Shown one piece after another: positions 2,906-51,895 of a stretch of 53,301 nucleotides of DNA. How positions within the stretch are numbered: the stretch's first letter is position 1; each line of letters opens with the position of its first letter. The notes under the pieces are model-generated. The model saw only the letters and a list, made by a program, of their open reading frames with translations. It did not search any database and was not told the origin of the DNA. A program made the position numbers and the translations under genes. This DNA comes from a virus: IMG/VR virus record IMGVR_UViG_3300032297_000671, positions 1-53,301 of that record. One strand, 5' to 3'.

Positions 2906-5518
2906 ATGGATTTACTAAATCAATTGAAAACTCTAAGAGATAATACTAATTCTCCTGAAGTGAGAACACTGTGTGAATCTCACATAAAAAACATCCAAGA
3001 AGGAACTGTTACTTTGAATGAATCTGAAATTATTGAATCGGTTAACGAGGCAAATAATTCTGCTTCGAATGAAGTAAATCCAATGGAAATGCTAAGAAAG
3101 CAAGAACTTGAAAAATCTAAATCAATGGCTTCTAGACTTATGGAGTCTTGGGGTGGTTTAGGATCTTCTTTTTCTAAAACTTCTGGTTCTTACGTTGACG
3201 GAAAAACTGAGGAGAAAAAAGACTTAGCTTCTAATATTTCTGAGAGCCTATCTCAATTTGCTGATAATGATCCTGCAGCTAAAGCATTTGTTCAGTCACA
3301 AGGAGTTAATAACTTAGGAGTTTATGAATCTATACTTTCTATAAAAGGACAAGGAATATATGAGCATCCTAATGTTAAGGTTCTTTGTGAGAAATACACA
3401 CACCTTATTAAGTCTCAAAATTTACCAGAGTTTCTTGTAGCTGAATCGTTTGCTTCAGAAATACAAAACTTTACATGGGACAATAAAGTAAAATCCATTT
3501 ACGAAAAAATTTCAGAGAGCTTAAATTCTCTTAAACCTGAGATTGAGGTTTCTAAAGCTTTATATTCGATCGAAAGAAATGCTGGATCTGATTTCTATTC
3601 TCCTGTTACAGAGTCATTGAACAAATGGCTAGTTTCTGAGAATAAATCGGTTGCTTTGTTATCAAAAGAATTGTCTAGATGGTCTTTCAATCCAGCTGTA
3701 AGAAATCTTGTTAATAGTCTTTCATTAATGGAAAGCTCTAATGAAAAATTAAGCATTCCTGTTAATAGTGGAAATTCTTCAGTAAGTAGATTATTCTCTC
3801 CAGTTTTAGTTGGTAGCGGTAAAACAACATTTACTATCGGAAGTAACGTTTTTGAAGGTAATGCAGAAGGTATCAGAAAGTTATCTAACAAGGAGATTTC
3901 AGAATTACCTAAAAACTTTATGAGCTTATTGGAGTCTTTCTATTCTCCGATGGTTAAGGTTAACGAGAGCGGTATCTCATACTTTATTGGCGATAAAGCT
4001 TACAAATTGGTAGGGGAAAACGATTCAGTTAACATTTACTCAAAGGGTAATAAAATTAAATTCGCTGATAATACACAATTGGCAAAACAGATCGCTCTTG
4101 AGATTTCTGGAACTTTTGGTATTAACGAATCAAAAGCAATTTCTGATTTGATCAACATCTACGAAAATTTTGATCAAATCGTAGAATTGGACTTTGCAAA
4201 AAGATTAGATTCTAAGGTTTATGAGGGAGCATCAGTTAATCTTATTAAATGGGAGAATAAGCTCTATTTGAACAAGATCAATTCTGCAATGAATGAGAAT
4301 TCTTTGTACGTTGTAAACGGAACTCAGGCTTCTTCTATGATTAAGGAGTTTTTAAAGTATGACATATCAGAAGGTCTTACCGAGTTTTTAGACGGAGAAA
4401 ATAGAATCAAATCTATCATGATTAACGATAGAGCTCAGATTATTGAAAACATCACTATCGTGGAAAAAGAGATTCAGAAAATCGAAGCTACGATGTCTCA
4501 AAATCCTGTATTTACTAACTCTAAAGAATTACAAAGAGCTAAATCTCTCTTAGAGCAGGAGCTTAATACATTGAGACAAAAATGGTCTGCTGTTAACGAA
4601 GAAATTGAGAAAATCGATTCAGGAGTTTCAGAAGTTCAAAATGTTAACGAGGATGAAAAATTTAATGTTGGAGACTACATTAAAGTTAAAGAGTCTGGAA
4701 ACACAGGAAAAATTATTTCTGTAGATTCTACTTCAGGATCATACACTGTATTGATGGATAATGGCAAAACAGGCGATTATAGAGTAGATGAAATCGTTGA
4801 TATCGAAGAAGCTTTAGCTGATGCAGGTAAAGAGAACGACGAAAAAAGCAAACCACAGGAAGATGAGGAGGAAATAAAGGAGAATGAAATGGCTTCTGCT
4901 CCAACAAAAGCCACTGCCGGTTCTAAAGATATGACTCCTGCTGCTACTATGAAAGCAAATACAACTGCTGCTCCATCTTCGAAAGAGCAAGAAGTTACTA
5001 GCAAAAAAGATGTAGAAAATCTAGATCACGCTAACCTTGAAGAAGCACCTGAGGGTAAAGAAAAAGAAACTAAGTTCGAGGTTAAATTGAAAGATTCGTT
5101 AGTTGATAAGATTGGATACAATGTTAATGAATCAGATCTTGAAAAAACAAATCCTGAACTTGCTGAAGCACCAGGAGGAAAAAGCGATGCTGATTATAAA
5201 GTAGAGATTTCTATCCCTAAAGCTAATAACCCAGAAGCTAGTGATAAAGATCAAGATTTAGCTGATGCACCTGAATCTGGTGTATCTAAGGTAAAGGCTA
5301 ATACAGATCAGAATTTAGCTACCGCTCCAGGTGGAGAATCTGAAGCTGATTATAAAGTTGAAGTTACTATTCCTAAGGCAAATAAGCCAGAAGCTAATGA
5401 TGAAGATCAAAACTTAGCTGATGCACCTGCAGCTGGAACTGAAGCTCAGACTAACGTTGAGGTTAATTCTGAAATGGGATATAACATTGACGAGAGCGAA
5501 GAGTCAAAAAAAAACTAA
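2906..5518 (+). CDS. Large acidic virion-type protein with leader and C-terminal repeats
   Basis: The 870-residue product begins with a leader holding several [L/I]xE sites that fit a T4-type prohead protease: IQE|G (30-32), LNE|S (37-39) and IIE|S (42-44). The middle is helical, with a coiled coil near residues 515-565 and a KOW/SH3-like stretch near 592-622 (KVKESGNTGKIISVDSTSG). From about residue 695 it is acidic with imperfect repeats of the type DLADAP / APGGxSxADYKVExxIPKAN. It ends in the in-frame heptamer A AAA AAC followed directly by TAA, with an open -1 frame beyond. A head-internal or head-associated role is inferred from the leader; no family recognised. Confidence 0.75.
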   Translation: MDLLNQLKTLRDNTNSPEVRTLCESHIKNIQEGTVTLNESEIIESVNEANNSASNEVNPMEMLRKQELEKSKSMASRLMESWGGLGSSFSKTSGSYVDGKTEEKKDLASNISESLSQFADNDPAAKAFVQSQGVNNLGVYESILSIKGQGIYEHPNVKVLCEKYTHLIKSQNLPEFLVAESFASEIQNFTWDNKVKSIYEKISESLNSLKPEIEVSKALYSIERNAGSDFYSPVTESLNKWLVSENKSVALLSKELSRWSFNPAVRNLVNSLSLMESSNEKLSIPVNSGNSSVSRLFSPVLVGSGKTTFTIGSNVFEGNAEGIRKLSNKEISELPKNFMSLLESFYSPMVKVNESGISYFIGDKAYKLVGENDSVNIYSKGNKIKFADNTQLAKQIALEISGTFGINESKAISDLINIYENFDQIVELDFAKRLDSKVYEGASVNLIKWENKLYLNKINSAMNENSLYVVNGTQASSMIKEFLKYDISEGLTEFLDGENRIKSIMINDRAQIIENITIVEKEIQKIEATMSQNPVFTNSKELQRAKSLLEQELNTLRQKWSAVNEEIEKIDSGVSEVQNVNEDEKFNVGDYIKVKESGNTGKIISVDSTSGSYTVLMDNGKTGDYRVDEIVDIEEALADAGKENDEKSKPQEDEEEIKENEMASAPTKATAGSKDMTPAATMKANTTAAPSSKEQEVTSKKDVENLDHANLEEAPEGKEKETKFEVKLKDSLVDKIGYNVNESDLEKTNPELAEAPGGKSDADYKVEISIPKANNPEASDKDQDLADAPESGVSKVKANTDQNLATAPGGESEADYKVEVTIPKANKPEANDEDQNLADAPAAGTEAQTNVEVNSEMGYNIDESEESKKN
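5509..5515 (+). promoter_or_regulatory. Probable -1 ribosomal frameshift site (A AAA AAC)
   Basis: The heptamer is in the correct phase for a tandem slip (zero-frame codons AAA AAC) and the zero-frame stop TAA is the very next codon. Slippage by -1 reads CTA AAA AAA ATA into a 58-codon open frame. A AAA AAC and A AAA AAG are classical slippery sequences. No stable structure is obvious at the usual 5-9 base spacing. Confidence 0.6.
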
Positions 5519-7233: not shown

Positions 7234-8862
7234 ATGGCAGGATTCACAGATAACCCACAAGGAAATCCCATATTTCAAAGAATTAAGGATTCAGTAAAAT
7301 CCCTGAGTAATTTTGGATTAAGGTACGGTGATATGGTCATTAGGAACTCCCAGGCTATCGGTCAGACCGAAGCTGAGTTCATGAAGAAAGGTCCTATCGA
7401 AGATGATACAATGTTGTATTCACTAGGTAGACAAGATACAACAACAAAGCAATTTATTGGTTATTTTGATAAGGATTACGCAGGTAAGAGAGATTACCTT
7501 AGAAAGTTTTCACTAAATCCTGAAATCGAATATATTCTGGATACTGTTTGTGACGAGTCCATAACTTACGATTCCTATAATTTTTTTGCATACCCAGCTT
7601 TTCTTAATCTAACCAATATAAAAGAAAAGGTTATAAATAGAATTGACTCAAACTACAAGAAATTGTATGATATGTTTGGGTTTAGCGACGATAGCACTGC
7701 TTGGCAATATTTCAGGCAGCTTCTTGTTGACGGATTTATCGCATTTGAGATTATTTACGATGACAAGGGTAAAAATATCATAGGATTTAAAGAACTTGAT
7801 GCAACGACATTAATGCCATCTGTAGAAAAACAGAAGGATGGATCTTTTCTTAATGTTTGGTATCAATATCCTAAGGACATTAATAAGAAGAGAATGCTCT
7901 ATGATTCTCAGATAGTCTATATCTCATATGCTAAGGGAAATACAGTTTCCAGGGTTTCTTATGCTGAAAGATTGATTAGACCTTATAACATATTAAGAAT
8001 CATAGAGTATACCCGTGTTATATGGTCGGTAATGAACGCTTCATTCAGGATGAAGATGACAGTTCCTATCGGATCAAGATCACCTCAGAAGTCAATGCAA
8101 ACCTTAGGTGAATTGATGAGTATCTATAAAGAGGATATAAGATTTAATGACGATAGTGGAGAACTTACTGTAGACGGTAGACCGAAAATACAGTTCTACA
8201 AAAATTATCTTATGCCTTCAGGTGTAAATGGTACACCAACTATCGAGCCTTTAAACACTGCGGGTCCTAATCTTAATGATCCCGCTCCATTAGCATATTT
8301 CTTTGACAAATTAGCACAGGAATCAAAAATTCCTTTTTCTAGATTCCAAGGACCGGATGGAGGATCTATAGGTCAATATTCAAATTCTGCAGAAGGACTT
8401 GACAAGGAAGAAATCAGATTTGCAAAATTTGTAACGAGATTGAGATCTATATTTCAGGATATCCTTGTTAAGCCACTATGGATCCAGATGTGTAAGGATT
8501 TTCCGGAGCTTGAAAAGGATTATCTTTTTAAAAGTCAACTTGGATTAACTTTTGTTTCTGATAACCCATTTAGGGTAAATCAAGAAATAGAGACCATGAC
8601 AAAAAAGAAAGAGTCTATTGATAGTCTTTATGGGTTAACTGATGAAGATGGTAAGCCATTCTTTTCTTTAGCTTATCTTATAGAGAGCTATTTGGGTATG
8701 ACTGCTGATGATATTAAGGCTAATGAGGAGGCAAAGAAAAAAAGAAAAGAAGAATTAAAGAAGGAAGGTAAAAGTGAAGAAGCTGCTGCACCTGCTGAGG
8801 GATCTGCAGAACCTGCGGAACCTGCAGAAACACCCGAAACAGAAACACCTCCAGCTGAATAA
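7234..8862 (+). CDS. gp20: Portal protein, T4 gp20-like, copy A
   Basis: The 542-residue protein has the gp20 pattern: DKDYAGKRDYLRKFS with EIEYILDTVCDESI near residues 75-105 (nucleating domain), WQYFRQLLVDGFIAFEI, the core ELTVDGRPKIQFYKNYL near 310-328, and the stretch SRFQGPDGG...EIRFAKFVTRLR leading to the crown helix. Length equals T4 gp20 (524) plus an acidic Ala/Pro/Glu-rich tail of about 50 residues. Gp20 forms the dodecameric DNA gate at one capsid vertex and starts head assembly. It is followed 11 bases later by a full second portal gene. Confidence 0.92.
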   Translation: MAGFTDNPQGNPIFQRIKDSVKSLSNFGLRYGDMVIRNSQAIGQTEAEFMKKGPIEDDTMLYSLGRQDTTTKQFIGYFDKDYAGKRDYLRKFSLNPEIEYILDTVCDESITYDSYNFFAYPAFLNLTNIKEKVINRIDSNYKKLYDMFGFSDDSTAWQYFRQLLVDGFIAFEIIYDDKGKNIIGFKELDATTLMPSVEKQKDGSFLNVWYQYPKDINKKRMLYDSQIVYISYAKGNTVSRVSYAERLIRPYNILRIIEYTRVIWSVMNASFRMKMTVPIGSRSPQKSMQTLGELMSIYKEDIRFNDDSGELTVDGRPKIQFYKNYLMPSGVNGTPTIEPLNTAGPNLNDPAPLAYFFDKLAQESKIPFSRFQGPDGGSIGQYSNSAEGLDKEEIRFAKFVTRLRSIFQDILVKPLWIQMCKDFPELEKDYLFKSQLGLTFVSDNPFRVNQEIETMTKKKESIDSLYGLTDEDGKPFFSLAYLIESYLGMTADDIKANEEAKKKRKEELKKEGKSEEAAAPAEGSAEPAEPAETPETETPPAE

Positions 8863-8873
8863 AATAAAACGAT

Positions 8874-10478
8874 ATGGCCGGATTTCTAGATAACGTAGCG
8901 GAAAGAACATTCTTAGGTAACCTGTACAAAAACCTATCCAGAATAGGTAAGTTTGGTATGGAGTACCAAGATATGGTTATTAAAAATTCACAGGCAATTG
9001 GTTCGACAGAATCTAATTTTTTTAATGAGCAAGGGAGCGGATTTACTGAGAATGATGCTTTTAGATGGACTCTTGGATATCAAGATACCCAAATTAGAAA
9101 ATACATTGCTTATTTTGATAAGGATTATGTAGGTAAGAGGGATTTTCTTCGAAAATTTTCCTTGAATGGTGAGATTGATTTTATTCTTGATACAATTACC
9201 GATGATTCTGTAAATTACGATGATAAGAATTTCTTTTCTTATCCATCACTAGCAAACATAGATCTTAAGAATAATGTTGTAGATAAGTTGGACGAAACGT
9301 ACAGGAATCTCTATATGCTTTTCGGTTTCCAGCAGAGTATTCTTGCCTGGCAATATTTTAGACAATTCCTGATAGACGGTTTTCTTGCATTTGAGATTGT
9401 ATATTCTACCGATGGTAAAAAAATTGTAGGTTTTAAAGAGCTCGATGCTACTTCACTTCAGCCAGCAACAGAAAAACAACCTAACGGTGAATTCCAGCAA
9501 ATTTGGATTCAATACCCGAATGATAATAAGATGACCAGAAGGTTAAAAGCTGAACAGATTATTTATATTTCTTATGCTAAGGGTAACACAGTCTCTAGAG
9601 TTAGCTATGTAGAAAGATTAATAAGATCATACAATATCCTACGTATAATGGAAAATACTAGGGTTATTTGGAATGTTATGAATGCCTCTTATCGTTTGAA
9701 ATTTGTCATCCCTGTTGGTAGTCAATCACAGCAGAAAGCAATGCAAACCCTTGGGCAGTTAATGTCTATCTACAAGGAGGAAATAGATCTGAATGATTTT
9801 TCCGGAGAATTAACAGTAAACGGTAGACCAAAGGTTCAATTTTATAAGAATTATTTGTTTCCTGAGAAAGATGGACAATCTCCAGATATTTCGACCCTGG
9901 ATCCTAATGGTCCGGATTTTAATGTGATGGAGAACGTTGTTTATTTCTATAATAAACTTAAACTAGATTCAAAAATACCTTATGCTAGATTTGCTTTTAG
10001 AGGGGGTACACCAGCAAATTATCAGATAGCCATAGATCAGCTTGAAAGGGATGAAATAAGATATGAGAAATTCTTAACTAGACTTAGATCAATCTTCCAA
10101 GAAATACTCGTTAAACCTCTTTATATTCAGATGTGTTTGGATTTTCCTGAATTATCAAAGGATAGATCATTTAAGGCTAATTTAGGTCTGGATTTTGTAA
10201 GAGAGAATTTGTTTGAAGAATTAATACAGCTTCAGAATTATACCAAGAGAAGCGATTTTATTACTGCTCTTGGAGGAATGAACCAGAAAATAGGAGAAGC
10301 TGAAACCCCTTACTTTGATAAAGAATTTCTAATAAAAAGATTCCTTGGTATTACTATGGATGAGTTTAGGAAGAATGAAAAGTATAAGGAAAACGAAGCT
10401 AAGGAAGCTAAAAAGGCTGAAAAAGAAGGTGGTGCTACTGAAGAAGGTGGCGGTGGTGGAGAAAGCTTTACTCTTTAA
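8874..10478 (+). CDS. gp20: Portal protein, T4 gp20-like, copy B
   Basis: The 534-residue protein matches copy A throughout and in the same order: DKDYVGKRDFLRKFS, AWQYFRQFLIDGFLAFEIVY, YISYAKGNTVSRVSYVERLI, ELTVNGRPKVQFYKNYL and EILVKPLYIQMCLDFPELS. Roughly half of the positions look identical by eye. Differences cluster at the N-terminus, in the loop after GRPKxQFYKNYL and in the tail, which here is Lys/Glu then Gly-rich. Both copies retain every core block, so neither looks decayed. They could form mixed rings or two types of portal, or one may have a separate role. Confidence 0.9.
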   Translation: MAGFLDNVAERTFLGNLYKNLSRIGKFGMEYQDMVIKNSQAIGSTESNFFNEQGSGFTENDAFRWTLGYQDTQIRKYIAYFDKDYVGKRDFLRKFSLNGEIDFILDTITDDSVNYDDKNFFSYPSLANIDLKNNVVDKLDETYRNLYMLFGFQQSILAWQYFRQFLIDGFLAFEIVYSTDGKKIVGFKELDATSLQPATEKQPNGEFQQIWIQYPNDNKMTRRLKAEQIIYISYAKGNTVSRVSYVERLIRSYNILRIMENTRVIWNVMNASYRLKFVIPVGSQSQQKAMQTLGQLMSIYKEEIDLNDFSGELTVNGRPKVQFYKNYLFPEKDGQSPDISTLDPNGPDFNVMENVVYFYNKLKLDSKIPYARFAFRGGTPANYQIAIDQLERDEIRYEKFLTRLRSIFQEILVKPLYIQMCLDFPELSKDRSFKANLGLDFVRENLFEELIQLQNYTKRSDFITALGGMNQKIGEAETPYFDKEFLIKRFLGITMDEFRKNEKYKENEAKEAKKAEKEGGATEEGGGGGESFTL

Positions 10479-17372: not shown

Positions 17373-18251
17373 ATGATCTTAAGTAAGAACACAGGTAATC
17401 TTGGTTGCGTAAATAAAAATTTTGGCAGGTCTATAACTTCCTGTTATGATTTCGTGCAGATGGTTTTGAATGAATCTATTGACGCTAATTCTAAATCAAT
17501 AAAATTGTCTTGTTTTGAGATTGGACAGGATTTTAATTTTCCTGACTTTTCTTCCATCGAGGAAGAAGATAAAGTGATGGATCTGATATGGGATCTTTCT
17601 AATTTAATTAGAACTAATTCACATAGGATATTTTTCTTTCTCCCTGGATATTATTTTTTGGGAAGTCAAATGCCAGATGTTGTTGAAAAAACTAGGGAAA
17701 CTGTTCTATCAATTTCTGTTTTTCTTGAAATGATAGGAGTTAGATCAACGTCGATTATATTAAGAGTTGGATCTGCTTATGGTGCTAGAAAAGCAACAAT
17801 GGAAAGATTTAACTCTGAGATTAATTCATTTTTACCTGGAGTTAAAAAATTAATCGCGGTTACGAACGACGAAAAACCTAGTCTTTTTTCGGTAACAGAT
17901 CTTTTGTCCGGTGTTTATTATCAAACCAAAATTCCTATATGTTTTAGATTCCTAGCTCATACCTTCAATAACGGTGGGCTTACATATAAGGAAGCACTAT
18001 TTCTTTCCTGCTCAACGTGGAAAGAAGGTGAAGTTCCAATTTTCATATATTCTGAATCTGACGAAATAGATGAGTTCGGGGCTTTTGTATCGCCAAAGAC
18101 AGCATTAAAGCTAAATCATAGAATCCCAACATTCGGCCTAGAGACAGACGTAATTATAGACTCTGAAAGATCTAAAGAAACCTGTATTAAGTATATGACT
18201 GAAAGAAGCTCATTGAGACCTATAGTCATCAACAAAATGTCTAAGAAATAA
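17373..18251 (+). CDS. UvdE-like TIM-barrel protein with altered active site
   Basis: The 292-residue protein follows the order of UV-damage endonuclease UvdE/UvsE: an N-terminal NLGCVNKNF, a YGARKATMERF block where UvdE has the GDK..A..RF stretch, the segment LIAVTNDEKPSLFSVTDLLS (UvdE VLENDD..SVEDVL) and TKIPICFRFLAHTFNN (UvdE GIPMVFDVHHH). Several metal-ligand positions appear changed (Glu of LEND is Thr, first His of HH is Ala), so activity is doubtful. It sits before an Fpg/Nei glycosylase gene. Alternatively it is another xylose-isomerase-like barrel. Confidence 0.55.
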   Translation: MILSKNTGNLGCVNKNFGRSITSCYDFVQMVLNESIDANSKSIKLSCFEIGQDFNFPDFSSIEEEDKVMDLIWDLSNLIRTNSHRIFFFLPGYYFLGSQMPDVVEKTRETVLSISVFLEMIGVRSTSIILRVGSAYGARKATMERFNSEINSFLPGVKKLIAVTNDEKPSLFSVTDLLSGVYYQTKIPICFRFLAHTFNNGGLTYKEALFLSCSTWKEGEVPIFIYSESDEIDEFGAFVSPKTALKLNHRIPTFGLETDVIIDSERSKETCIKYMTERSSLRPIVINKMSKK

Positions 18252-18298: not shown

Positions 18299-19108
18299 AT
18301 GCCAGAATTAGCTGAGCTTAAGCTCACTGCAGATTATGTAAATAAACAATCGAGGGATCGTATATTTCATCTTGTAAAAAAACAGGAATATCATAAGGGA
18401 GAGGATATTTTCTCTTGTTTAGATTTTCCTTTTATCATAGAAGCAAGCAGTAGAGGAAAGGAATTAATGTTAACTATTTCAACTGCCCCTGAGTTTGCAA
18501 CTGAGGACAATATGCAGGTTAAGCATCTGATGATGACGATGGGAATGGGAGGATGTTTTAAATGGGTTCCTAAGAACGAAGAGCAAAAGCATGCACATAT
18601 CCATTTTATTTCAGATGATGGTTACCTTGCATTTGTTGATATTAGAAGATTTGGGAAATGGAAATGGGGACATTGGAACATTGATAGAGGACCTGATCCT
18701 ACGTTGGACTACACCGCTTTTGTCAATAACATAACGGAAAATTTGGATCATAGGGATTTTAGTAAGCCAATTTATGAAGTCCTTATGAATCAGAGATGGT
18801 TCAATGGAATAGGTAATTATTTACGTGCAGAAATACTTTATCGAATAGAAGGCGCAGACCCTTTCTCGAGTGCAAAGGATTATATTAATTCATATGGACC
18901 TGAATTATTTTCTTTGTGCCGTGACATTCCCATGCTAGTATATAAACTCGGAGGTGGTACATTAAGAGATTGGGAAAACCCATTCGGTGAAGTATCATCG
19001 ATCGGGTCTGTAATGAAATGCTATTACAATCCTACTATGAATAAGATGAAAGATAAAAACGGTCGTACTTTTTGGTATGACCCAAAATGGGAAAAATATG
19101 ATAAATAA
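18299..19108 (+). CDS. fpg: Fpg/Nei-type DNA glycosylase
   Basis: The 269-residue protein starts MPELAE, giving the catalytic N-terminal Pro and Glu after Met removal. It has DIRRFGKWKWG near residues 118-128 and a helix-two-turn-helix, NQRWFNGIGNYLRAEILYR (about 164-182). At the C-terminus the usual Cys4 zinc finger is replaced by MKCYYNPTMNKMKDKNGRTF with just one Cys, while the GRTFWYDPKW end keeps the finger Arg. This is like the zincless finger of NEIL1 and giant-virus Nei. It removes oxidised bases and cuts the strand at the site. It overlaps the exonuclease gene by 11 bases. Confidence 0.9.
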   Translation: MPELAELKLTADYVNKQSRDRIFHLVKKQEYHKGEDIFSCLDFPFIIEASSRGKELMLTISTAPEFATEDNMQVKHLMMTMGMGGCFKWVPKNEEQKHAHIHFISDDGYLAFVDIRRFGKWKWGHWNIDRGPDPTLDYTAFVNNITENLDHRDFSKPIYEVLMNQRWFNGIGNYLRAEILYRIEGADPFSSAKDYINSYGPELFSLCRDIPMLVYKLGGGTLRDWENPFGEVSSIGSVMKCYYNPTMNKMKDKNGRTFWYDPKWEKYDK

Positions 19109-23383: not shown

Positions 23384-25396
23384 ATGGGAAATAATCCAAA
23401 TTCATTGAACGAGAATCTATTCTTTATATTAGAAAAGCAAAATGACAATCTTGCCGTTTCTAAAGTAGATTCCGATTCAGGTAAAGAATACATTCTTCAG
23501 GGAATAGCTGCTCAGTTTGGCAAGGAAAACAATAACAATAGAATCTATGAGGAAGGTGAATATCTTCCGCATCTTGACTATTTAAAGGACAAGATCAAAC
23601 AAAAAAGACTCCTAGGAGAATTGGATCACCCAGAAAAGTTTGATGTTTCTTTAAAAAATATTTCTCACGTTATCGACGATTTAGAATACGATAAAGACGG
23701 GAGAGTTCTTAAGATCAAGGTAAAATTGTTAGATACACCTGCTGGTCAGATAGCTAAAAAATTAGTTGATGCTGGAATTCCTTTAAGTATTAGTTCTAGA
23801 GCCGCTGGTCAAGTTGGACCAGATAAAAAGGTTCAAATCAAGAAGATTTTTACGTATGATTTAGTTGCTGATCCTGGTTTTCAAGATGCTCAGCTAGAGA
23901 GAGTTTATGAGTCTGCAGACTTTGTTACGTTCGTTGATCACCAAAAAAATTCAATAATAAACAGTCTTGAATGCGTAAATGAATCATTTGGATTAGAAAA
24001 TGAAAATTCATTGAAGATATATAAAGTTGAAAATAACGAGGAATTCGAAAAACTCTTTAAGTCAGAAGAAAAAAATAAATCCGCTACTATGGAGCAAAAA
24101 GAATATGTGACTGCTGATGAACTCAATAAATATTCTATCTTTTTAAAGAAGAAAATGGATGAGCTTGAGGCACAAATAAATGAAATGAAAAACGATGCTT
24201 CAGTATCTGAAGCTTCAACTGTTACAACTACTGACACTTCTGCTTTAGAAGAAAGGGTAGCTAAGCTTGAGAAATATTCAGAGTATCTTGCTGAAAATCT
24301 AGACGGTGCAATTAAATATGGTGAATATCTTGCTGAGAATCTAGACAACAGCATCACTTACTCTAAGTATCTTGCTGAAAATCTTGATAAGAACATCTCT
24401 TATGCTAAGTATCTAGCTGAGAATGTTGATAAGTCTATTTCATATTCAGAGTATGTTGCTGAGAATGTTGATAAGGCTATCGACTATTCTAAATATTTAG
24501 CTGAGAAAGTTGATGATGGTATTCAATACACAGAATATGTTGCTGAGAACCTTGATAAAAATATCGCTTATTCTGAGTATCTTGCAGAAAACCTAGATAA
24601 AGGTATCGCTTATTCTGAGTATCTTGCAGAAAACCTAGATAAAGGTATTGCTTATTCAGAATACATCGCAGAAAAATTAGATCAAGGAATTCACTTCACT
24701 GAATACCTTGCTGAAAACGTAAACAAGTCGGTATCTTATTCTGAATACATCGCAGAAAACTTAAATAAGGGTATCGCTTATTCAGACTATCTAGCTGAAA
24801 AGCTAAATGGTAACATCGCAGAAACTGAGTCTATCTCAGAGAGCGTAAAAAATGGTAAATCTGTTAACTTGAACGAAAGTGCAAGAGAAAATGCAGAAAT
24901 TATCGCTAACACAGAATTGGTAGAGTCTGGTTTTGCTGGAGATTATAATTCAATCTCAGGCAAAATTGACGCTCTAATTGAATCAGTCAAGACGCAAAAG
25001 ACTGAGGAGAATATAAACGAGGCAAGAACGAAAGTTCAGCCAACTGCTCAAACACAAAAAGCAGATGAGGCATTGAATGAAGGAATTGAATCTAATGTTA
25101 AGTCATCAGGTTACAAGTTTATCGATCAGATGCCAGAGGAATATGCTCAGGTTTGGGAATCCTTAAATGAAAACCATAAGCAATCTATTGTTGCTCAGGC
25201 TTCTTTCTACAATTTGGAAACTCAATATCAGATCAATAACTTCTGGTCTACTAGACAACTTGATACAAAAACAATTGGACTTCAAAAACTTCAAGAAAGC
25301 CAAGAAACACCAGAACCAACAAAAGAAAGCTTATCACCTGCATATTCTAACGACTATGTACAGTGGGTAGCTAAGTCTCTTGAAGGTAAGTTTTAA
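23384..25396 (+). CDS. gp21: Prohead protease (gp21-like) fused to a repetitive scaffold
   Basis: Residues 36-180 form a T4 gp21-type serine protease: QFGKENNNNRIYEE, LLGELDHPE with His82, ISHVI, LDTPAG, and GIPLSISSRAAG with the nucleophile at Ser137 or Ser138. The next 470 residues are scaffold-like: charged helix, then thirteen 14-residue repeats of EYLAENLDKGIAYS type (24281-24826), then a polar tail with several LNE sites. In T4, protease (gp21) and core scaffold (gp22) are separate genes. A LNE|N at residues 8-10 may be the self-processing site. It lies 23 bases before the capsid gene. Confidence 0.88.
   Translation: MGNNPNSLNENLFFILEKQNDNLAVSKVDSDSGKEYILQGIAAQFGKENNNNRIYEEGEYLPHLDYLKDKIKQKRLLGELDHPEKFDVSLKNISHVIDDLEYDKDGRVLKIKVKLLDTPAGQIAKKLVDAGIPLSISSRAAGQVGPDKKVQIKKIFTYDLVADPGFQDAQLERVYESADFVTFVDHQKNSIINSLECVNESFGLENENSLKIYKVENNEEFEKLFKSEEKNKSATMEQKEYVTADELNKYSIFLKKKMDELEAQINEMKNDASVSEASTVTTTDTSALEERVAKLEKYSEYLAENLDGAIKYGEYLAENLDNSITYSKYLAENLDKNISYAKYLAENVDKSISYSEYVAENVDKAIDYSKYLAEKVDDGIQYTEYVAENLDKNIAYSEYLAENLDKGIAYSEYLAENLDKGIAYSEYIAEKLDQGIHFTEYLAENVNKSVSYSEYIAENLNKGIAYSDYLAEKLNGNIAETESISESVKNGKSVNLNESARENAEIIANTELVESGFAGDYNSISGKIDALIESVKTQKTEENINEARTKVQPTAQTQKADEALNEGIESNVKSSGYKFIDQMPEEYAQVWESLNENHKQSIVAQASFYNLETQYQINNFWSTRQLDTKTIGLQKLQESQETPEPTKESLSPAYSNDYVQWVAKSLEGKF
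24281..24826 (+). repeat. Thirteen 42-bp in-frame repeats (14 residues each)
   Basis: The consensus is [E/K]Y[L/V/I]AE[N/K][L/V][D/N]KxIxYS, with two adjacent copies identical (EYLAENLDKGIAYS). Each unit carries LAE or a close variant (VAE, IAE) before Asn or Lys. The period of 14 suits a long amphipathic helix or coiled coil. Confidence 0.95.
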
Positions 25397-25419: not shown

Positions 25420-27114
25420 ATGAAACTAATTAACGAAGCAGAAATCTTCGAAACCTGGTCTCCTATCATCGAGCAGAAGGCTGGAATCGCAGATACTGAA
25501 AAGAAACAGTGGCTTTCTAAATATTGTCACTACCACTCATTGAACGAATCAGCTGGTGCTTATTCTTCTTTGAACGTTGTTAACGGTATGGGTGCAGTTA
25601 CACCTCCTACCTTCCCAACTAACACCAACGCTAACGCTGGTTTTTATAACTCATCTTGGCAAGGATCTGGCGATAAATTCCCTTCACTTCTTCCATTGGC
25701 TATTCAGGTAGCTGCGAAGACTGTAGGTTTTGACATCGTTCCAGTTATCCCTATGTCAGGTCCTACTGGCGTATTGTCATACCTTGACTACGTTTACGCT
25801 GGTGGTAAAATCAGCCCAACTTCTGTTGGTGACACAGCTGCTGATGCTTTAGCTGCTGCTCCTGCAATGATCAAATTGCAAATCACTTCACTTGCTTCAG
25901 GATATCCTGCATCATTTGCGGTTGGTACTACTTACTACATCACTAACGCTTCTTCAGCTGGTGCATACATCACTACTAAATTCGTAGGTCTATCAAGAAT
26001 TGATGGTTACCCTATCTTTAGAGTAGAAGGTGTTACTGCTGGTGAGTCTATCGCAGCTGTTATCGACGGTGGTGCTACTAAAGTTGGTACTTCAATCAAC
26101 GGATCTCAAGCTGGTACTACTACTGCTTCTGCAGCATTAGTTAAAGCTTTAGAAGACCACATCCAAGGTTTCTCTGGTGCTGGTTTCCAAAACAGCGATA
26201 ACTGGCAAGGTCCATTCGTTGACGGTACTAAAACTTACAACCCAATGCTTAGAGCATACGGTGAGAGTAACTACTACCAGTCAATGGGTCTTTCGACTTT
26301 CACTAAGTTCGTTGAGGCTGACACTTTCCAAGTAGCTGCTTCTGTAACTACGGAGCAAATCCAAGACCTTAACAAACAATTCGGTATCGACGTTATCTCA
26401 ATGATCGAGAACGCATTGGTTAATGAGGTTTCACAAGCTATCAACAAGCACATCCTTTCTAGAGGATTCGCTCTTGGATGGTCTAACCACTACGACTTCT
26501 ACACTACAGAAGGACAAAACTTGAACCTTAACCTTGTAATTGGTGGTACTGCAGGTTCATACACTATCCCTTCATACGTAGGTAAAGATGACACTGGTTT
26601 AACTCTTGCTGGAACTGCTGGTCCTGCAACAGGAACTTACGAGAACTTGTCAACTCTTCAGAGAAGATTATTCTCAAGAATTCTTGCTGCTGCTAACGTA
26701 GTTGCTAACAGAGGTAGAAGAGGTCCTGCTAACTTCATCGTTACTAACGCTAACGTTGCAAGTGCATTGCAAGATATCTCTCAGTTCACTTTCGCTCCTT
26801 TCTCTAACACGTTGACTCAGAACAACGGTACATTATACCCTGTAGGTTCACTTGCTGGTATGACTGTTTACGTTGATCAGAACATGACGTTCTCTGATAC
26901 GAGAGTATTGGTAGGTAGAAAAGGTGGTGATGACGAACCAGGACTTAAGTTCATGCCTTACATGATGGCTGAGTCTATTCAGACAATCTCTGAAGGTACT
27001 ATGTCACCTAAGATCGCAGTTAAATCTCGTTACGCTTTAGTAGAAGCTGGTTTCCACCCAGAAACTATGTATTTCTGCTTCAACGTTAACTTGCCTGCTG
27101 GAGGTATCTCCTAA
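25420..27114 (+). CDS. gp23: Major capsid protein, T4 gp23-like
   Basis: The 564-residue protein has the gp23 plan: leader MKLINEAEIFETWSPIIE (T4 MTIKTKAELLNKWKPLLE) ending at LNE|S (residues 41-43), then the mature part. Later blocks include EQIQDLNKQFGIDVISMIEN (residues 315-334), RRGPANFIVTNANVASALQD (430-449), and near the end KSRYALVEAGFHPETMYF. It should form the hexamers of the head after removal of the leader by the adjacent protease. Codon choice differs from neighbours (AAC, TAC, TTC, ATC preferred), as for a very highly expressed gene. A strong terminator follows. Confidence 0.95.
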   Translation: MKLINEAEIFETWSPIIEQKAGIADTEKKQWLSKYCHYHSLNESAGAYSSLNVVNGMGAVTPPTFPTNTNANAGFYNSSWQGSGDKFPSLLPLAIQVAAKTVGFDIVPVIPMSGPTGVLSYLDYVYAGGKISPTSVGDTAADALAAAPAMIKLQITSLASGYPASFAVGTTYYITNASSAGAYITTKFVGLSRIDGYPIFRVEGVTAGESIAAVIDGGATKVGTSINGSQAGTTTASAALVKALEDHIQGFSGAGFQNSDNWQGPFVDGTKTYNPMLRAYGESNYYQSMGLSTFTKFVEADTFQVAASVTTEQIQDLNKQFGIDVISMIENALVNEVSQAINKHILSRGFALGWSNHYDFYTTEGQNLNLNLVIGGTAGSYTIPSYVGKDDTGLTLAGTAGPATGTYENLSTLQRRLFSRILAAANVVANRGRRGPANFIVTNANVASALQDISQFTFAPFSNTLTQNNGTLYPVGSLAGMTVYVDQNMTFSDTRVLVGRKGGDDEPGLKFMPYMMAESIQTISEGTMSPKIAVKSRYALVEAGFHPETMYFCFNVNLPAGGIS

Positions 27115-32844: not shown

Positions 32845-33331
32845 GTTTGCTTCAATCTCAGATTTACCTATATTTAAATTTGAATTTGTCGATTGGTTCA
32901 AAAATTTAGAATTAGTAGATTCCCAAGAATCTACCCATTTATTTGCATTAGGAAAAGAGTCTATGCTAATGCAATTGAATAGAGATGGTCTTTTACCTGA
33001 TTTCATTCTCGATAGAGGTATTTTAACAGTTATGACCTGGGGAATACTTTCAGGAAGAATAACTGAATCCAAGGCACATGAGCAACTTTCCATGATTTGT
33101 GAAGCAGGTCTTTTCGATAACATTAGGATATTCTATGTGGTTGGTGAAAATCCAGACCGGTCTAGTAGGAATAAGGATGTTTGGGACTTTAGAGAATCCG
33201 ATAATAGAGAATCTGAGATCATGGAAAATCTAAGAGATCATATTTCTAATAATCCATATAACGTGCAGGTTGAGTACATTTTTAATGAATTCAACGAAGA
33301 TTCTGTACGATCTCTACATAAATTTATATAA
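32789..33331 (+). CDS. P-loop kinase-like protein
   Basis: The 180-residue protein opens with FEGQRNSGKTFLA, a Walker A motif (GxxxSGKT at 7-14) that fixes the start at 32789 despite the 56-base overlap with the previous gene. FILDRGIL (about 71-78) resembles the DR motif of thymidylate and deoxynucleoside kinases, and a Arg/Asp-rich lid-like stretch (RSSRNKDVWDFRESDNR) follows. Likely a small nucleotide or nucleoside kinase; substrate unknown. The next start is 2 bases after its stop. Confidence 0.6.
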   Translation: MITIFEGQRNSGKTFLAHKFASISDLPIFKFEFVDWFKNLELVDSQESTHLFALGKESMLMQLNRDGLLPDFILDRGILTVMTWGILSGRITESKAHEQLSMICEAGLFDNIRIFYVVGENPDRSSRNKDVWDFRESDNRESEIMENLRDHISNNPYNVQVEYIFNEFNEDSVRSLHKFI

Positions 33332-33332
33332 A

Positions 33333-34730
33333 ATGTGCGGTATACTAATAACTAAAGAAATCTCGGACAGAGTAATCGATTCGATTAAACATAGAGGAAT
33401 TGAAAAAACAATTGTTAGTAAGGGATTGTTTAATCTTTGTCATCACAGACTTCCTATCCAAACCTCAGATGGCGATGATTGGAACCAGCCAAAGGAGATA
33501 AGTCCTGGGATCTTCCTCTTGTTCAATGGAGAGATATTTAATTACGATAGAAATAGGTATTCATCAGACATCGAGTATCTCTGTAGTTTATTTTCTAACT
33601 ATCGTGGTGGAAACTTCGATTTATTTTGTGCTTTCTATCTTTCTCAGATACAAACATGGGATGGATTTTGGGCTATAGTTTTATATGATGCTAATCTTAA
33701 TGAGGCTATTGCTTTTACAGATCCTTTAGGAAAGAAGTCTTTGTATTTCAATAATATTGGTGAGATCTGTTCTGAGATAAAGGGAGTAGTTAGTGATAAT
33801 TCCCCGATTGATGAAATCTTTATGAGCTCAGTTAGAAAATGGGGATATAATACAGACGAGAGAACTCCATATACGGATGTCAAGAGAATTTTACCAAATG
33901 ACATCTACCATTTGAATCTAGATAACGTAGAAATTAGAAAGATCTATAAAGAATATTACAAGGGATTCGATTCCCCAATAACTGAATTAATAGGTGCTTC
34001 CTACGAGGATCACATGGAGTGGTTATGGAGCAAAATGTTTGAGTCAGTTAAGAATAGACTTGTATCAAAAAACTACCCAATTTCTTTGCTAATTTCTGGT
34101 GGACTTGATTCCTCTATCATAGCTTCTATATTAAAAGAAATTGGTGCTGACGTCAGGTGGTTTAGTATAGAGAATGGTGAAAGGGAATATGTTGAATTGC
34201 TTTCTGAGTACTTATCAACTAACGTAACATTCCTTGACTATTCGATGGAGGATGATAAGAATGACGAGATATACAAAAAATGGAACGAGTCCCCAATTGA
34301 TCTCGGATCAGCTATTCCTCAGTATTACTTATTTGAAGCTATTAAAAAATTCGGAGGATATCGTATAGTTTTAAGTGGTGATGGATCTGACGAACTCTTT
34401 GGAGGATACAGAAGGATCCACGAATACGATTCACAGAAATCTGATATCTTCGAGGAGCTTTCTTATTATCACTTGCCTAGACTTGATAAGATGTCAATGG
34501 CACATACTTTAGAATTGAGAAGCCCATTCCTTAATCTTGATCTTGTTAGATTTGCTCTACATTTACCTAAGGAATGGAGAACAGATAAAAAAATTCTAAA
34601 GGACACCTTTGCACCGATATTACCCGAGGAAATAGTCAATAGAAAAAAAGAAGCTCTAAAGAATCCTCAGATAAAAGAAGATAAAATAAAGTATCGATAT
34701 AAGGTAATTGACAGATTTATTAAGCAGTAG
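33333..34730 (+). CDS. asnB: Class II glutamine-dependent asparagine synthetase-like
   Basis: The start is set at MCGILI, giving the N-terminal Cys nucleophile of the Ntn glutaminase domain, for a product of 465 residues. Further glutaminase signs are HRLPIQT and FNGEIFN. The synthetase domain has the PP-loop SLLISGGLDSSII (about 250-262) and LSGDGSDELFGGY (about 347-359). Shorter than AsnB (about 550) but with both active sites. It converts Asp to Asn or amidates a related carboxylate; WbpS-type relatives amidate sugars. Neighbouring glycosyltransferase-like genes favour a surface-glycan role, though Asn supply is equally possible. Confidence 0.85.
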   Translation: MCGILITKEISDRVIDSIKHRGIEKTIVSKGLFNLCHHRLPIQTSDGDDWNQPKEISPGIFLLFNGEIFNYDRNRYSSDIEYLCSLFSNYRGGNFDLFCAFYLSQIQTWDGFWAIVLYDANLNEAIAFTDPLGKKSLYFNNIGEICSEIKGVVSDNSPIDEIFMSSVRKWGYNTDERTPYTDVKRILPNDIYHLNLDNVEIRKIYKEYYKGFDSPITELIGASYEDHMEWLWSKMFESVKNRLVSKNYPISLLISGGLDSSIIASILKEIGADVRWFSIENGEREYVELLSEYLSTNVTFLDYSMEDDKNDEIYKKWNESPIDLGSAIPQYYLFEAIKKFGGYRIVLSGDGSDELFGGYRRIHEYDSQKSDIFEELSYYHLPRLDKMSMAHTLELRSPFLNLDLVRFALHLPKEWRTDKKILKDTFAPILPEEIVNRKKEALKNPQIKEDKIKYRYKVIDRFIKQ

Positions 34731-44936: not shown

Positions 44937-47258
44937 ATGGGTATTAAAGCTACAGATAAGAATAGGAATTTATTCCTGAAGGGTTTCAGATTATCCCAGT
45001 CTGGGATGAATGAGGATCCTACTTACCTCGGCTTTAAGGTTATATTTGATTTCGGAAACCTTCCTGTTAATCCTGATACTGGACTTCCCCCGAGTCCTCT
45101 TTTAAGAAGAGCCAATTACACTCTTGATAATGGTGCATCCATGATGACAAATAATCCATTTGGTCAACCACAATATGATTTGAGAGAAGGAGATGTAACT
45201 TTCTATTCAGCATATAATTTTTTAAAACAAAGGGAGGCTAATTTCGGTAGAAACAACACGGAGAAAAGAGCAAACGCTATTTTACAATTCCAAAAACTTC
45301 TACAAGAAATTAATACAAATTCTCCTTGGTTTTTTCAGTCCATAGAAGGACTTGATGAATTGGGAAAGATTTCTAGGGGTGGCTTCCAGAATTCTTCAGA
45401 ACTTGACACGTTCGATCCACAGAGAACCATCGATAAAACACTTACCTTCAATTGTTTGGAATCGATAAATCTTAGAATGAATGCTCTAGCTGATCTATAC
45501 CATCAGGCAGTTTTTGATGCTGATAATATGAGATGGTTGGTTCCAAGAAACTTAAGAAAATTCACTATGTGGATTTTCGTGACTGAGATTAGAAATTTCT
45601 TTAAAACAAGCCGTCTTGCAGCATCAAGCACTGCTCTTGCAGCTTTAGATGATCTTTCATCAACACTAACTAATAATAGAAACCCTGGTTCTAGTATAGT
45701 TACTAACACGGAAACCGGAAATTATTCGGTTGATGGATTTAATCTTGGTGGAAGCTACGGAGCAGATTCTAATAGTGGAAACGGAAGTTCCTTTACTAGC
45801 TTTGTCAGCAACGTATTTGATTCCTCAGGATTGCAAAACGAAGCACAAGCATTTAGAAACCAACAGGATCAAACTGGTATAAAACCAGTATTGATATACG
45901 AGTGCAGCCAATGTGAATTTGATTTTAGTGATAGTAGTTCAATAAAGAGCTCTATTGACAATGGATCAGGTAATGCTGACCCCGAAACTCAGTCTTTTAA
46001 AATCTATGTTGGTAAGGTTAGAACTAAGAACCAGTATCCAAATATTAGACAAGACGGTAAACCATTAATACTTGCTGATGGTTGGGATCAAGATAGATCA
46101 AGTGTTCAGAATCTTGATAGCGTCCTTGATATTGAAAGTGTACTTGGTGCAGGATCACAACTCCTTACTAACTTTGTTTCTTCTGCTGTTAGTGATCTTG
46201 TTAACGAGGGTATAAATCAATTCGTGAATCCATTGTTATCTGGAGTAAATCAGAGTCTTCTTGGAAACATATACAGTTTCAATCCGGTTCAATTAGGAAG
46301 AATGACAAACGAGAGAGGTAACTTCGGGTTTAATAACGCAGAAAACTTTCTCAATGGAGCAGCAGAAACCGGTATAGATAACATATTTAAAGGAAATCTA
46401 CCAACCCCGCAGAAAACTGGTCAAGGTGGTCCACCAGAAAGGGTTTATCCAGTGATACAAACTGATCCTGATGTTTATAAGAATGTTCCAGGATCTGATC
46501 TTGGTGTTCCCGGAAGGGTTTACCCAGCTCCATCCGGTGATGCCTACACAAATGTTCCAGGATCTGATCTAGGAGTTCCTAATAGAGTTTATTCAAACCC
46601 TTCGGGTGATGCATATTCTGATGTACCTGGTGCTGATCTTGGTGTACCTGACAGGGTTTATCCTGCTCCGGGTGGTGACGCTTATGCGGGTGTTCCTGGT
46701 GCGGATCTCGGTGTACCTGATAGGGCTTATCCTGCCCCAGGAGGCGATGTTTATGATAATGTTCCAGGATCTGATCTTGGTGTACCTGACAGGGTCTATC
46801 CCGTACCGGGAGGTGATGTATATGCTAATGTACCTGGATCAGATCTCGGAGTACCTGATCGAAACTACACACCAAATTTAAATGATGATGTCTATTCTGG
46901 TGTACCTGGACAAGATCTTGGTGTTCCTAACAGATCATATAGAACTATAGATGATGATGTTTATACTGATCAAATAATACCTGAAAAATTAGGTAGGGAG
47001 GATGTTTACAAAGATACATCACTAGTTTCATCAAATGGAGAGCTTAGATCTCCTGAAAATACTTTTACACAGCCTCCAGGAAGTGTATACGATCCGATCC
47101 AAAATCAACAACAAAGAGGAATACTAGGAAAGGTTTATCCACAAACCTCCGGAGATTTTATCATTGATGCACCAATAAATTTAGGCAACGCAAAACCGGC
47201 TGATAAATATAACATAAGTCTTGGAGATTTTAATCCTGAAGACTATCCAGAACAATAA
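44937..47258 (+). CDS. Baseplate/tail protein with seven 23-residue repeats
   Basis: The 773-residue protein has an N-terminal 230 residues that look like a tail-tube or hub module (YLGFKVIFDFGNLP, then WLVPRNLRKFTMWIFVTEIR) with a CSQCEFDF segment near 322. From residue 502 there are seven repeats of about 23 residues (RVYPAPSGDAYTNVPGSDLG then VPN) and a degenerate eighth, followed by a unique end. The repeat region is Pro/Gly/Asp/Tyr-rich, so probably an extended fibrous stretch. Gp54-like position in the operon; function inferred from context. Confidence 0.6.
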   Translation: MGIKATDKNRNLFLKGFRLSQSGMNEDPTYLGFKVIFDFGNLPVNPDTGLPPSPLLRRANYTLDNGASMMTNNPFGQPQYDLREGDVTFYSAYNFLKQREANFGRNNTEKRANAILQFQKLLQEINTNSPWFFQSIEGLDELGKISRGGFQNSSELDTFDPQRTIDKTLTFNCLESINLRMNALADLYHQAVFDADNMRWLVPRNLRKFTMWIFVTEIRNFFKTSRLAASSTALAALDDLSSTLTNNRNPGSSIVTNTETGNYSVDGFNLGGSYGADSNSGNGSSFTSFVSNVFDSSGLQNEAQAFRNQQDQTGIKPVLIYECSQCEFDFSDSSSIKSSIDNGSGNADPETQSFKIYVGKVRTKNQYPNIRQDGKPLILADGWDQDRSSVQNLDSVLDIESVLGAGSQLLTNFVSSAVSDLVNEGINQFVNPLLSGVNQSLLGNIYSFNPVQLGRMTNERGNFGFNNAENFLNGAAETGIDNIFKGNLPTPQKTGQGGPPERVYPVIQTDPDVYKNVPGSDLGVPGRVYPAPSGDAYTNVPGSDLGVPNRVYSNPSGDAYSDVPGADLGVPDRVYPAPGGDAYAGVPGADLGVPDRAYPAPGGDVYDNVPGSDLGVPDRVYPVPGGDVYANVPGSDLGVPDRNYTPNLNDDVYSGVPGQDLGVPNRSYRTIDDDVYTDQIIPEKLGREDVYKDTSLVSSNGELRSPENTFTQPPGSVYDPIQNQQQRGILGKVYPQTSGDFIIDAPINLGNAKPADKYNISLGDFNPEDYPEQ
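46440..46931 (+). repeat. Seven tandem 69-bp in-frame repeats
   Basis: The unit encodes R[V/A/N]YPxPxGD[A/V]YxxVPGxDLGVPx. Units differ at synonymous and non-synonymous sites, so the array is not recent; one unit is a residue longer. A partial copy follows to about 47000. Confidence 0.9.
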
Positions 47259-50728: not shown

Positions 50729-51895
50729 ATGAACAAGTCAGAAATTCCTACAGTAGGGTATGAAAACTTTGATTGGGATATTCCCAGTAAACTAACAGCG
50801 AACAAAAAAATTAAAACAATCGACGGATCTAAAGTTTTCTGTCACGAGCCTTATGCTGAGGAGCTTTATAGGCTAATGGCAGAATCTATCGAGAGTCTTA
50901 ATACTTCTAAAGATTTAAAAACAGGAATGGCTTACAATTGTAAGATCATTACACTTAATGATGATCATGCAATTGCTCAGACTGATTCTGGACAATCTGT
51001 TTATGTAGATCTTAACAAAGAAAGAAAGGATGCTAAGAGGCTAAATATCTCTGGTATCGAATTTAGAATTGGTGGTGAAATCCAGGCAATTGTAAGAAGC
51101 GTAATGGGAACATATTACGGATCTGTTGTTGAAGGATACATCGCAAACACTAAAGCAGAATTCTTTGAGCAAATCAAGAAAGAATCTTTAGCTTATGAGG
51201 CTAGAGTTGAGTCTATAAACAAGGGAGGATATTTGGTAGATGTTCAGGGGGTTAAATGCTTTTTACCTGGTTCTCTTGCTGCTGCCAATAAGATTACTGA
51301 TTTTGAATCATATATCGGTAAAAAATTCTATGTCATGATAGATGGATATGTTCAGCACAAGGATATATTCGTTGTTTCATACAAAAAATATCTTTCTAAG
51401 ATCATGGATCAGAAGATCCAAGAATTGGATCTAACGAAGAAATATACCGGCCACGTTACAGGTACTTCAAACTTCGGAGTATTCGTAGAATGGGAAGACA
51501 TCTACACTGGGCTTATTCACAAAACAGAGTTCGAAAATCAACAAATTACTGGATTTACAGCTGGTGATGAAATCGAATTCTACATCAAGGAAGTTAAGGA
51601 AGACAATAGATTAACTCTTACCCTTGGTGAACCAATCGAGAAAACTGTAAAAATCTATGATCTTAAAAAAGATGTAGATGAAGGTAATGCTCCTATTTTA
51701 AGAGCTACAGTCAAGCATAAGAGAAAAAATGGTGCATTGATCGAACTTCATGAGATTGGCCTGATGGCTATGATCCCACAAGGAAGATTGACACAAGCAC
51801 ATAAAAATCTTAAAACAGGTGATGTTATAGACGTTAAGGTCTATGAGGTTGATCCTGTGATGGGAAAAATTTTCGCACAACCTGAGAATGAATAA
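50729..51895 (+). CDS. Multi-domain S1 RNA-binding protein
   Basis: The 388-residue protein contains at least three and probably four S1/OB-like domains: about residues 65-145 (degenerate), 150-225 (YEARVESINKGGYLVDVQGV), 235-305 (YTGHVTGTSNFGVFVEWEDI, the best match, with GLIHKTEF) and 318-385 (LRATVKHKRKNGALIELHEI). Ribosomal protein S1 carries six such repeats and brings mRNA to the 30S subunit. A phage-made S1-like protein could steer host ribosomes or protect RNA. It has its own promoter-like motif and palindrome, and overlaps the next gene by 8 bases. Confidence 0.8.
   Translation: MNKSEIPTVGYENFDWDIPSKLTANKKIKTIDGSKVFCHEPYAEELYRLMAESIESLNTSKDLKTGMAYNCKIITLNDDHAIAQTDSGQSVYVDLNKERKDAKRLNISGIEFRIGGEIQAIVRSVMGTYYGSVVEGYIANTKAEFFEQIKKESLAYEARVESINKGGYLVDVQGVKCFLPGSLAAANKITDFESYIGKKFYVMIDGYVQHKDIFVVSYKKYLSKIMDQKIQELDLTKKYTGHVTGTSNFGVFVEWEDIYTGLIHKTEFENQQITGFTAGDEIEFYIKEVKEDNRLTLTLGEPIEKTVKIYDLKKDVDEGNAPILRATVKHKRKNGALIELHEIGLMAMIPQGRLTQAHKNLKTGDVIDVKVYEVDPVMGKIFAQPENE

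Follow-up and report, generated by a model that had tools for sequence, protein, structure and literature searches.

A prohead protease fused to a regular array of candidate cleavage sites in a T4-type head module

The stretch of DNA described here, a virus record of 53,301 bases that is probably a fragment and that we call the window, has the gene order expected of a T4-type head module, with a prohead protease gene followed by the gene for a gp23-type major capsid protein (MCP; Table 1). No stop codon interrupts the protease gene at the end of the protease domain; instead, a gp21-type part comprising the first 200 residues continues in one frame into a long tail. The stop of this gene and the start of the MCP gene are separated by 23 nt, with no separate scaffold gene between them. 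A preliminary description of the locus had recognised both the gp21-like protease running into a scaffold-like tail and the departure from T4, where gp21 and gp22 are separate genes, and both observations are borne out. The 670-aa ORF is matched by the Pfam profile PF03420 (Peptidase_S77; E 3e-8, above the cut-off) and by the PHROG profile phrog_207 ('head maturation protease'; E 7e-40), and the best Foldseek match of its AF2 model, for which only IMG/VR loci were used, is T4 gp21 (5JBL, E 5.5e-9). The next, weak structural matches are herpesvirus proteases (assemblins; E 0.02 and above); the herpesvirus protease family S21 is not matched, and by profile the fusion protease belongs to S77. His82 in the motif GELDHP aligns with H85 of T4 gp21 (GELNHP), and Ser137/138 in SSRAAG with the T4 pair S139/S140 in SSRG. 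Both motifs are invariant across the family alignment. An NCBIfam search of the head proteins returned no matches.

Table 1. Features of the fusion locus, with one further candidate core protein from the window (↓, presumed cut)
Feature	Position	Strand	Basis
Candidate additional dissolvable core protein, 870 aa	2906..5518	+	motif enrichment; putative function
Protease-scaffold fusion gene, 670 aa	23384..25396	+	same fusion seen in relatives
N-terminal segment ending ILE17↓K (and SLNE10↓N), candidate self-cleavage propeptide	23384..23434	+	putative cleavage
S77 prohead protease domain	23435..23983	+	profile, alignment, Foldseek
VNE200↓S201, candidate release site immediately behind the protease domain	23975..23986	+	putative cleavage
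Met236 (internal ATG), where a scaffold-only product may start	24089..24091	+	conservation, start context
13 tandem 14-residue units, YSEY[LIV]AE↓[NK]LDKGIA type; helical rod, candidate cut-site ladder	24275..24820	+	repeat analysis, alignment, AF2
Linker with more [LIM]xE sites and small helical C-terminal domain	24839..25258	+	motif count, AF2, alignment
gp23-type MCP	25420..27114	+	PF07068, E 7e-41
Candidate MCP propeptide cleavage site LNE43↓S	25540..25551	+	position shared with relatives

The most regular part of the tail is an array of 182 residues (298-479; 546 nt) composed of 13 x 14-residue units in register, with a start-to-start spacing of exactly 42 nt in every copy; TRF supports the tandem repeat. 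The preliminary description had the number of units and the length right and placed the array at 24281-24826, which is off by two codons. Each of the 13 units contains [LIV]AE↓[NK], with nine LAE, two VAE and two IAE at P3-P1, and ten Asn and three Lys at P1'. The earlier statement that most units read LAE↓N or LAE↓K is thus accurate for nine, and the agreement that it drew with the T4-type P3 and P1 preference, L/I-x-E (PMC9026906), extends to all 13 if Val is allowed at P3 in two. The fusion ranks first among the 39 window proteins for enrichment of the cut motif (shuffle test, z 7.5), an excess over shuffles that is partly expected of amphipathic helices; the comparison of heptad twins described below does account for helical periodicity. 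The array has a hydrophobic period of 3.50 residues, as in coiled coils, and structure prediction, suggested earlier as a check, yielded one continuous helix spanning residues 284-488 in the AF2 model, at low confidence (pLDDT 38-67). Since the 14-residue unit equals two heptads, position 7 has its helical equivalent in position 14, and both lie 179 degrees from the hydrophobic face. Several Pfam and PHROG matches within the repeats (LTI65_PGEED, FERM_F2, PSCyt2 and several unknown phrogs) were rejected as chance matches to a repetitive helix, none having a self-sufficient stretch. A literature search limited to open-licence papers found no account of a 14-residue repeat array of this kind.

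Relatives of the fusion are encoded by at least 582 contigs in IMG/VR, and the nearest ones in the phage record collection belong to uncultured phages of 462-735 kb. Some Bacteroidota metagenome bins contain contigs with fusion relatives, and a Bacteroidota host is plausible. The array was recognised by a masked profile in 53 of 55 representatives, the two exceptions being a Lak phage, a group in which the fusion is present with an acidic tail and no repeats, and a contig from a Bacteroidales bin (L093:89-2503), in which an S77 fusion bears a Trp-type 14-residue helical repeat (HEWGTEKAKAINEM) without [LIV]xE. In PA5oct, S-SSM7 and PAU, protease and scaffold are encoded by separate genes. Comparison of repeat number across relatives, also proposed earlier, gave arrays of usually 12-15 units (by strict counts, 12-14 in most close members and fewer in divergent ones). 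Unit number showed no trend with genome size by eye, with 12 strict units at 735 kb and 13 in the window, and hence provides no evidence for a length ruler. Units are 61% identical within one phage and 76% between orthologous positions of different phages, and the Glu-7 codons are both GAA and GAG; together these observations indicate that the array is old and is kept by selection at the protein level. A tree of the protease domain, built without T4 gp21 and not used to date the fusion, groups the fused forms that possess repeats, with few supported branches.

The conservation of individual positions within the unit was assessed in a census of 687 units, taken from 53 array-bearing members after cluster reduction, with the register set while positions 7 and 8, the presumed P1 and P1', were masked. 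Glu-7 is present in 646 of the 687 units (94%) and in 237 of 238 within the clade of the window, and its entropy (0.50) is the lowest of all positions. Entropy is highest (3.19) at the heptad twin of Glu-7, position 14. Position 3, which is likewise Glu-rich and exposed, is Glu in just 60% of units. Among the 41 units that lack Glu-7, Asp occurs once and Gln twice. P3 is Leu, Ile, Val or Met in 645 of the 646 units with Glu-7, and Lys occupies P1' in 20% of sites; Tyr-1 and Tyr-4 are conserved in 88% and 87% of units. With its heptad equivalent the most variable position of all, Glu-7 is not explained by a coiled coil alone. To judge from these sequences, a coiled coil by itself would predict none of the pattern at Glu-7 and P3, and a protease site with Glu at P1 and an aliphatic residue at P3 would predict all of it; the census thus supports the view that P1 and P3 are conserved far beyond the needs of a coiled coil. 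Four divergent members (L003, L088, L137 and L140) keep the 14-residue period and have Glu-7 in just 58-67% of units. That up to about 40% of units can lack this Glu indicates that a complete ladder is not essential for function, and the period of the rod appears to be more basic than the complete ladder. Of the original proposal that the array is both a helical rod and a ladder of cut sites, the helix and the conservation of the site are supported, while completeness of the ladder is dispensable in divergent relatives.

Additional candidate sites of the same protease lie outside the array: conserved motifs for putative cleavage after L/I-x-E by the S77 domain occur at the N-terminus, at the putative release site and in the MCP. 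An [IV]xE motif lies close to the N-terminus in nearly all of the 55 representatives, most often with K, R or N as the next residue, in a placement like that of LIE-9 of T4 gp21, cleavage of which is thought to activate that protease (PMC9026906, PMC9958956). Directly behind the protease domain, [LIVM]NE↓[SAQ] occurs in 52 of 55 representatives, and N199 and E200 are invariant in the alignment. In the MCP propeptide, [LIM]xE was present in 45 of the 45 representatives where a site was found, with Ser at the putative P1' in 29, Asn in 12, Gly in 2, and Gln and Asp in 1 each. The putative site of one relative (L084), LAE↓Q, is identical to the P3-P1 of the repeat, and those of others include INE↓N, LYE↓N and MNE↓N. 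The claim that the protease would accept Asn or Lys at P1' therefore fares differently for the two residues: Asn has good indirect support from these putative MCP sites, and Lys is the weaker case, backed by the N-terminal ILE↓K/R site and by an IAE↓K candidate in T4 gp22.

Beyond the repeats, the linker contains ISE486↓S, LNE498↓S, LVE514↓S, LIE533↓S, INE546↓A and LNE566↓G, and the tail outside the array holds 9 [LIM]xE[NASG] motifs where 1.6 are expected. It ends in a small domain (approximately residues 575-625, AF2 pLDDT about 80) with conserved W591, F620, W621 and R624, which by analogy may be the coat-binding end. The tail outside the repeats had no match to phrog_237, a profile that does match the gp22 proteins of T4 and S-SSM7, and hhalign of the tail against gp22 gave a probability of 0.4%. 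Since neither comparison showed sequence homology with gp22, the label 'scaffold' rests on position, helicity and analogy. Within an otherwise variable linker, 36 residues past the putative release site, Met236 is nearly invariant and is kept through most of the family. Its A-rich upstream context resembles that of a start codon and ranks among the best 5% when 239 internal in-frame ATGs are scored by a model built from 33 window genes; Met236 may be the start of a scaffold that lacks the protease. Such a product, if made, would remove the difficulty that a fusion supplies protease and scaffold one to one; T4 has about 580 copies of gp22 and 55-100 of gp21 (PMC9958956, PMC5694885).

Similar motifs were surveyed in the rest of the window. 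The 870-aa protein of Table 1 has 22 [LIM]xE[NASGK] motifs against 6.4 expected and ranks second of the 39 proteins (z 6.8). Across all window proteins [LIM]xE[NASG] is not enriched at N-termini (5.7 vs 5.6 per 1000 aa), and the narrower LNE type leans towards them (7 in 3168 vs 9 in 12954 residues). Genes starting at 27207, 28318, 29473 and 37975 open with the propeptide-like sites LNE↓G, INE↓S, LFE↓N and INE↓S, respectively, which could possibly be capsid-targeting sequences by analogy with the internal proteins of T4. Two tandem gp20-type portal genes (7234-8862 and 8874-10478; PF07230, E 2e-60 and 8e-59) share 53% identity; as a T4-type head needs one portal, these paralogs could form a mixed ring or be specialised copies. 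A gene in the probable tail or baseplate region (44937-47258, 773 aa) contains 23-residue tandem repeats of the type VPGSDLGVPDRVYPAPGGDAY at 46482-46858, with a 69-nt unit. Also found among the head and tail genes are a UvdE-type endonuclease (17373-18251), an Fpg/Nei-type glycosylase (18299-19108), an asparagine synthase (33270-34730) and an S1-domain protein (50729-51895).

We consider it moderately probable that the fusion is a head-assembly polyprotein, in which an S77 protease is joined to a helical scaffold rod whose ladder of cut sites is used at least in part. The gene would encode the protease, a release site, a rod of about 200 residues made of 13 double heptads and, at the C-terminus, a small domain in probable contact with the coat or the core. 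We infer that the rod would serve as the internal scaffold, or as part of it, and would bring the protease into the prohead. Upon completion of the head, the protease would free itself at VNE200↓S, and the rod would be cut after Glu-7 of its units, at [LIV]AE↓[NK], as well as at LNE-type sites beyond the array. The scaffold would thereby be reduced to peptides some 14 residues long, or a few times that length, which would be able to leave the head before DNA packaging. Initiation at Met236 would probably supply extra scaffold free of protease, as in herpesvirus UL26/UL26.5. A stricter version, in which the gene is nested in the herpesvirus manner, the Glu of alternate heptads is kept solely for cutting and the rod is reduced to uniform 14-mers, we hold to be doubtful while giving it real weight.

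The tail might instead be a plain coiled-coil scaffold, in which Glu-7 makes a helix or core contact and cuts fall only at the release site and at a few LNE sites outside the array. The 14-residue helix period indeed survives partial loss of the motif (L003, L088 and L093), and the conserved Tyr-1 and Tyr-4 could pair with Glu-7 in a bundle, a specific contact of this kind being a possible alternative reason for its conservation. A structural role sits poorly, however, with a Glu whose conservation exceeds that of every hydrophobic position in the core, whose replacement is rarely Asp or Gln and whose twin at position 14 is free; the unit offers no equally conserved basic partner, and P3 is aliphatic in all intact sites except one. 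We regard this account as unlikely.

It also seems rather improbable that the tail is a targeting device by which a low-copy protease is carried into a core made of other proteins, such as the product of 2906-5518 or those of the helical genes at 27207, 28318 and 29473. The C-terminal propeptide of the SPN3US protease has been proposed as a targeting signal (PMC7411985), the protein of 2906-5518 is likewise strongly enriched in cut sites, and propeptide-like sites (LNE↓G, INE↓S or LFE↓N) open several genes nearby. Yet a tail of some 470 residues, comprising 13 units and conserving both its C-terminal domain and an internal Met, exceeds the needs of a signal, and the fusion lies just upstream of the MCP gene, the position of gp22 in T4. 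Finally, tandem repeats are often born of slippage, and the window does show a tandem array. A functionless product of slippage, or of assembly error, is refuted by the presence of the array in 53 of 55 representatives with a stable unit number, by orthologous units that are more alike than paralogous ones, and by mixed synonymous codons under strong purifying selection for Glu-7; we give it next to no probability.

If the polyprotein reading is correct, the fusion family provides a concrete scaffold candidate for phages of 462-735 kb, one whose repeat is defined and whose cut products can be predicted. The ladder predicts 14-mers beginning with Asn or Lys, of about 1,556-1,664 Da (for example NLDKGIAYSEYLAE, 1585.7 Da), and the internal start predicts a scaffold-only product beginning at Met236. 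Within a single molecule, the opposite conservation of heptad-equivalent positions distinguishes a constraint of cleavage from one of structure. A T4-type protease-scaffold in a herpesvirus-like layout would, if real, bear on the origin of such fusions in the HK97-fold lineage.

Among known systems, phiKZ gp175 and SPN3US gp245 are gp21-like proteases with Glu at P1 and a self-cleaved C-terminal extension (PMC5694885, PMC7411985), a part proposed in SPN3US to be a prohead-targeting signal (PMC7411985). They differ from the fusion in their short extension (64 residues in SPN3US), their A-x-E motif (SPN3US) and the absence of a scaffold rod; SPN3US gp22 was later put forward as a candidate scaffold (PMC7411985). 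Herpesvirus UL26 comprises a protease, a release site, a short linker, the in-frame UL26.5 start, a scaffold and a coat-binding C-terminus (PMC4498786). In the fusion, too, an N-terminal protease runs in frame into the tail, and a putative release site, a candidate internal start, a putative scaffold and a possible coat-binding end would follow in the same order. Its protease is of another family and specificity, and the herpesvirus scaffold is cut at few sites and has no periodic ladder. Lambda C/Nu3 and P2 gpO are nested or single-gene protease-scaffolds that share one reading frame; their proteases belong to unrelated families, and they lack 14-residue repeats.

Closer in kind is ORF140 of the Flavobacterium phage MaF61, a 'putative prohead scaffold' that joins a gp21-type protease to a long tail without the 14-residue array. 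In this 1404-aa fusion (L008:3890-8104) the tail has 27 [LIM]xE[NASG] motifs against 5.3 expected; since MaF61 has a named host, it may be a workable system for studying the dicing of a scaffold. The Prevotella Lak phage fusions share the gp21-type protease and long tail, with a tail that is acidic and not enriched in the motif. T4 itself, with gp21, gp22, gp67 and gp68, shares the S77 fold, the His and Ser motifs, the L/I-x-E sites and an MCP propeptide site with the fusion, and differs in employing two genes, in a gp22 without a regular repeat and in the lack of detectable kinship between gp22 and the tail. The tail nonetheless resembles a dissolvable T4-type scaffold in being helical (by a low-confidence prediction), rich in protease sites and encoded beside the MCP. 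T4 gp22 contains 16 [LI]xE-type sites against 5.8 expected and is degraded by gp21 to small peptides (PMC9958956, PMC9026906). The enrichment of both gp22 and the MaF61 tail points to a cut-site-rich scaffold as an old feature of the T4 lineage. Thus, the principle of a cut-site ladder is already known from T4 gp22, and what is new in the family represented by the window is that the ladder takes a regular 14-residue form and is fused to the protease.
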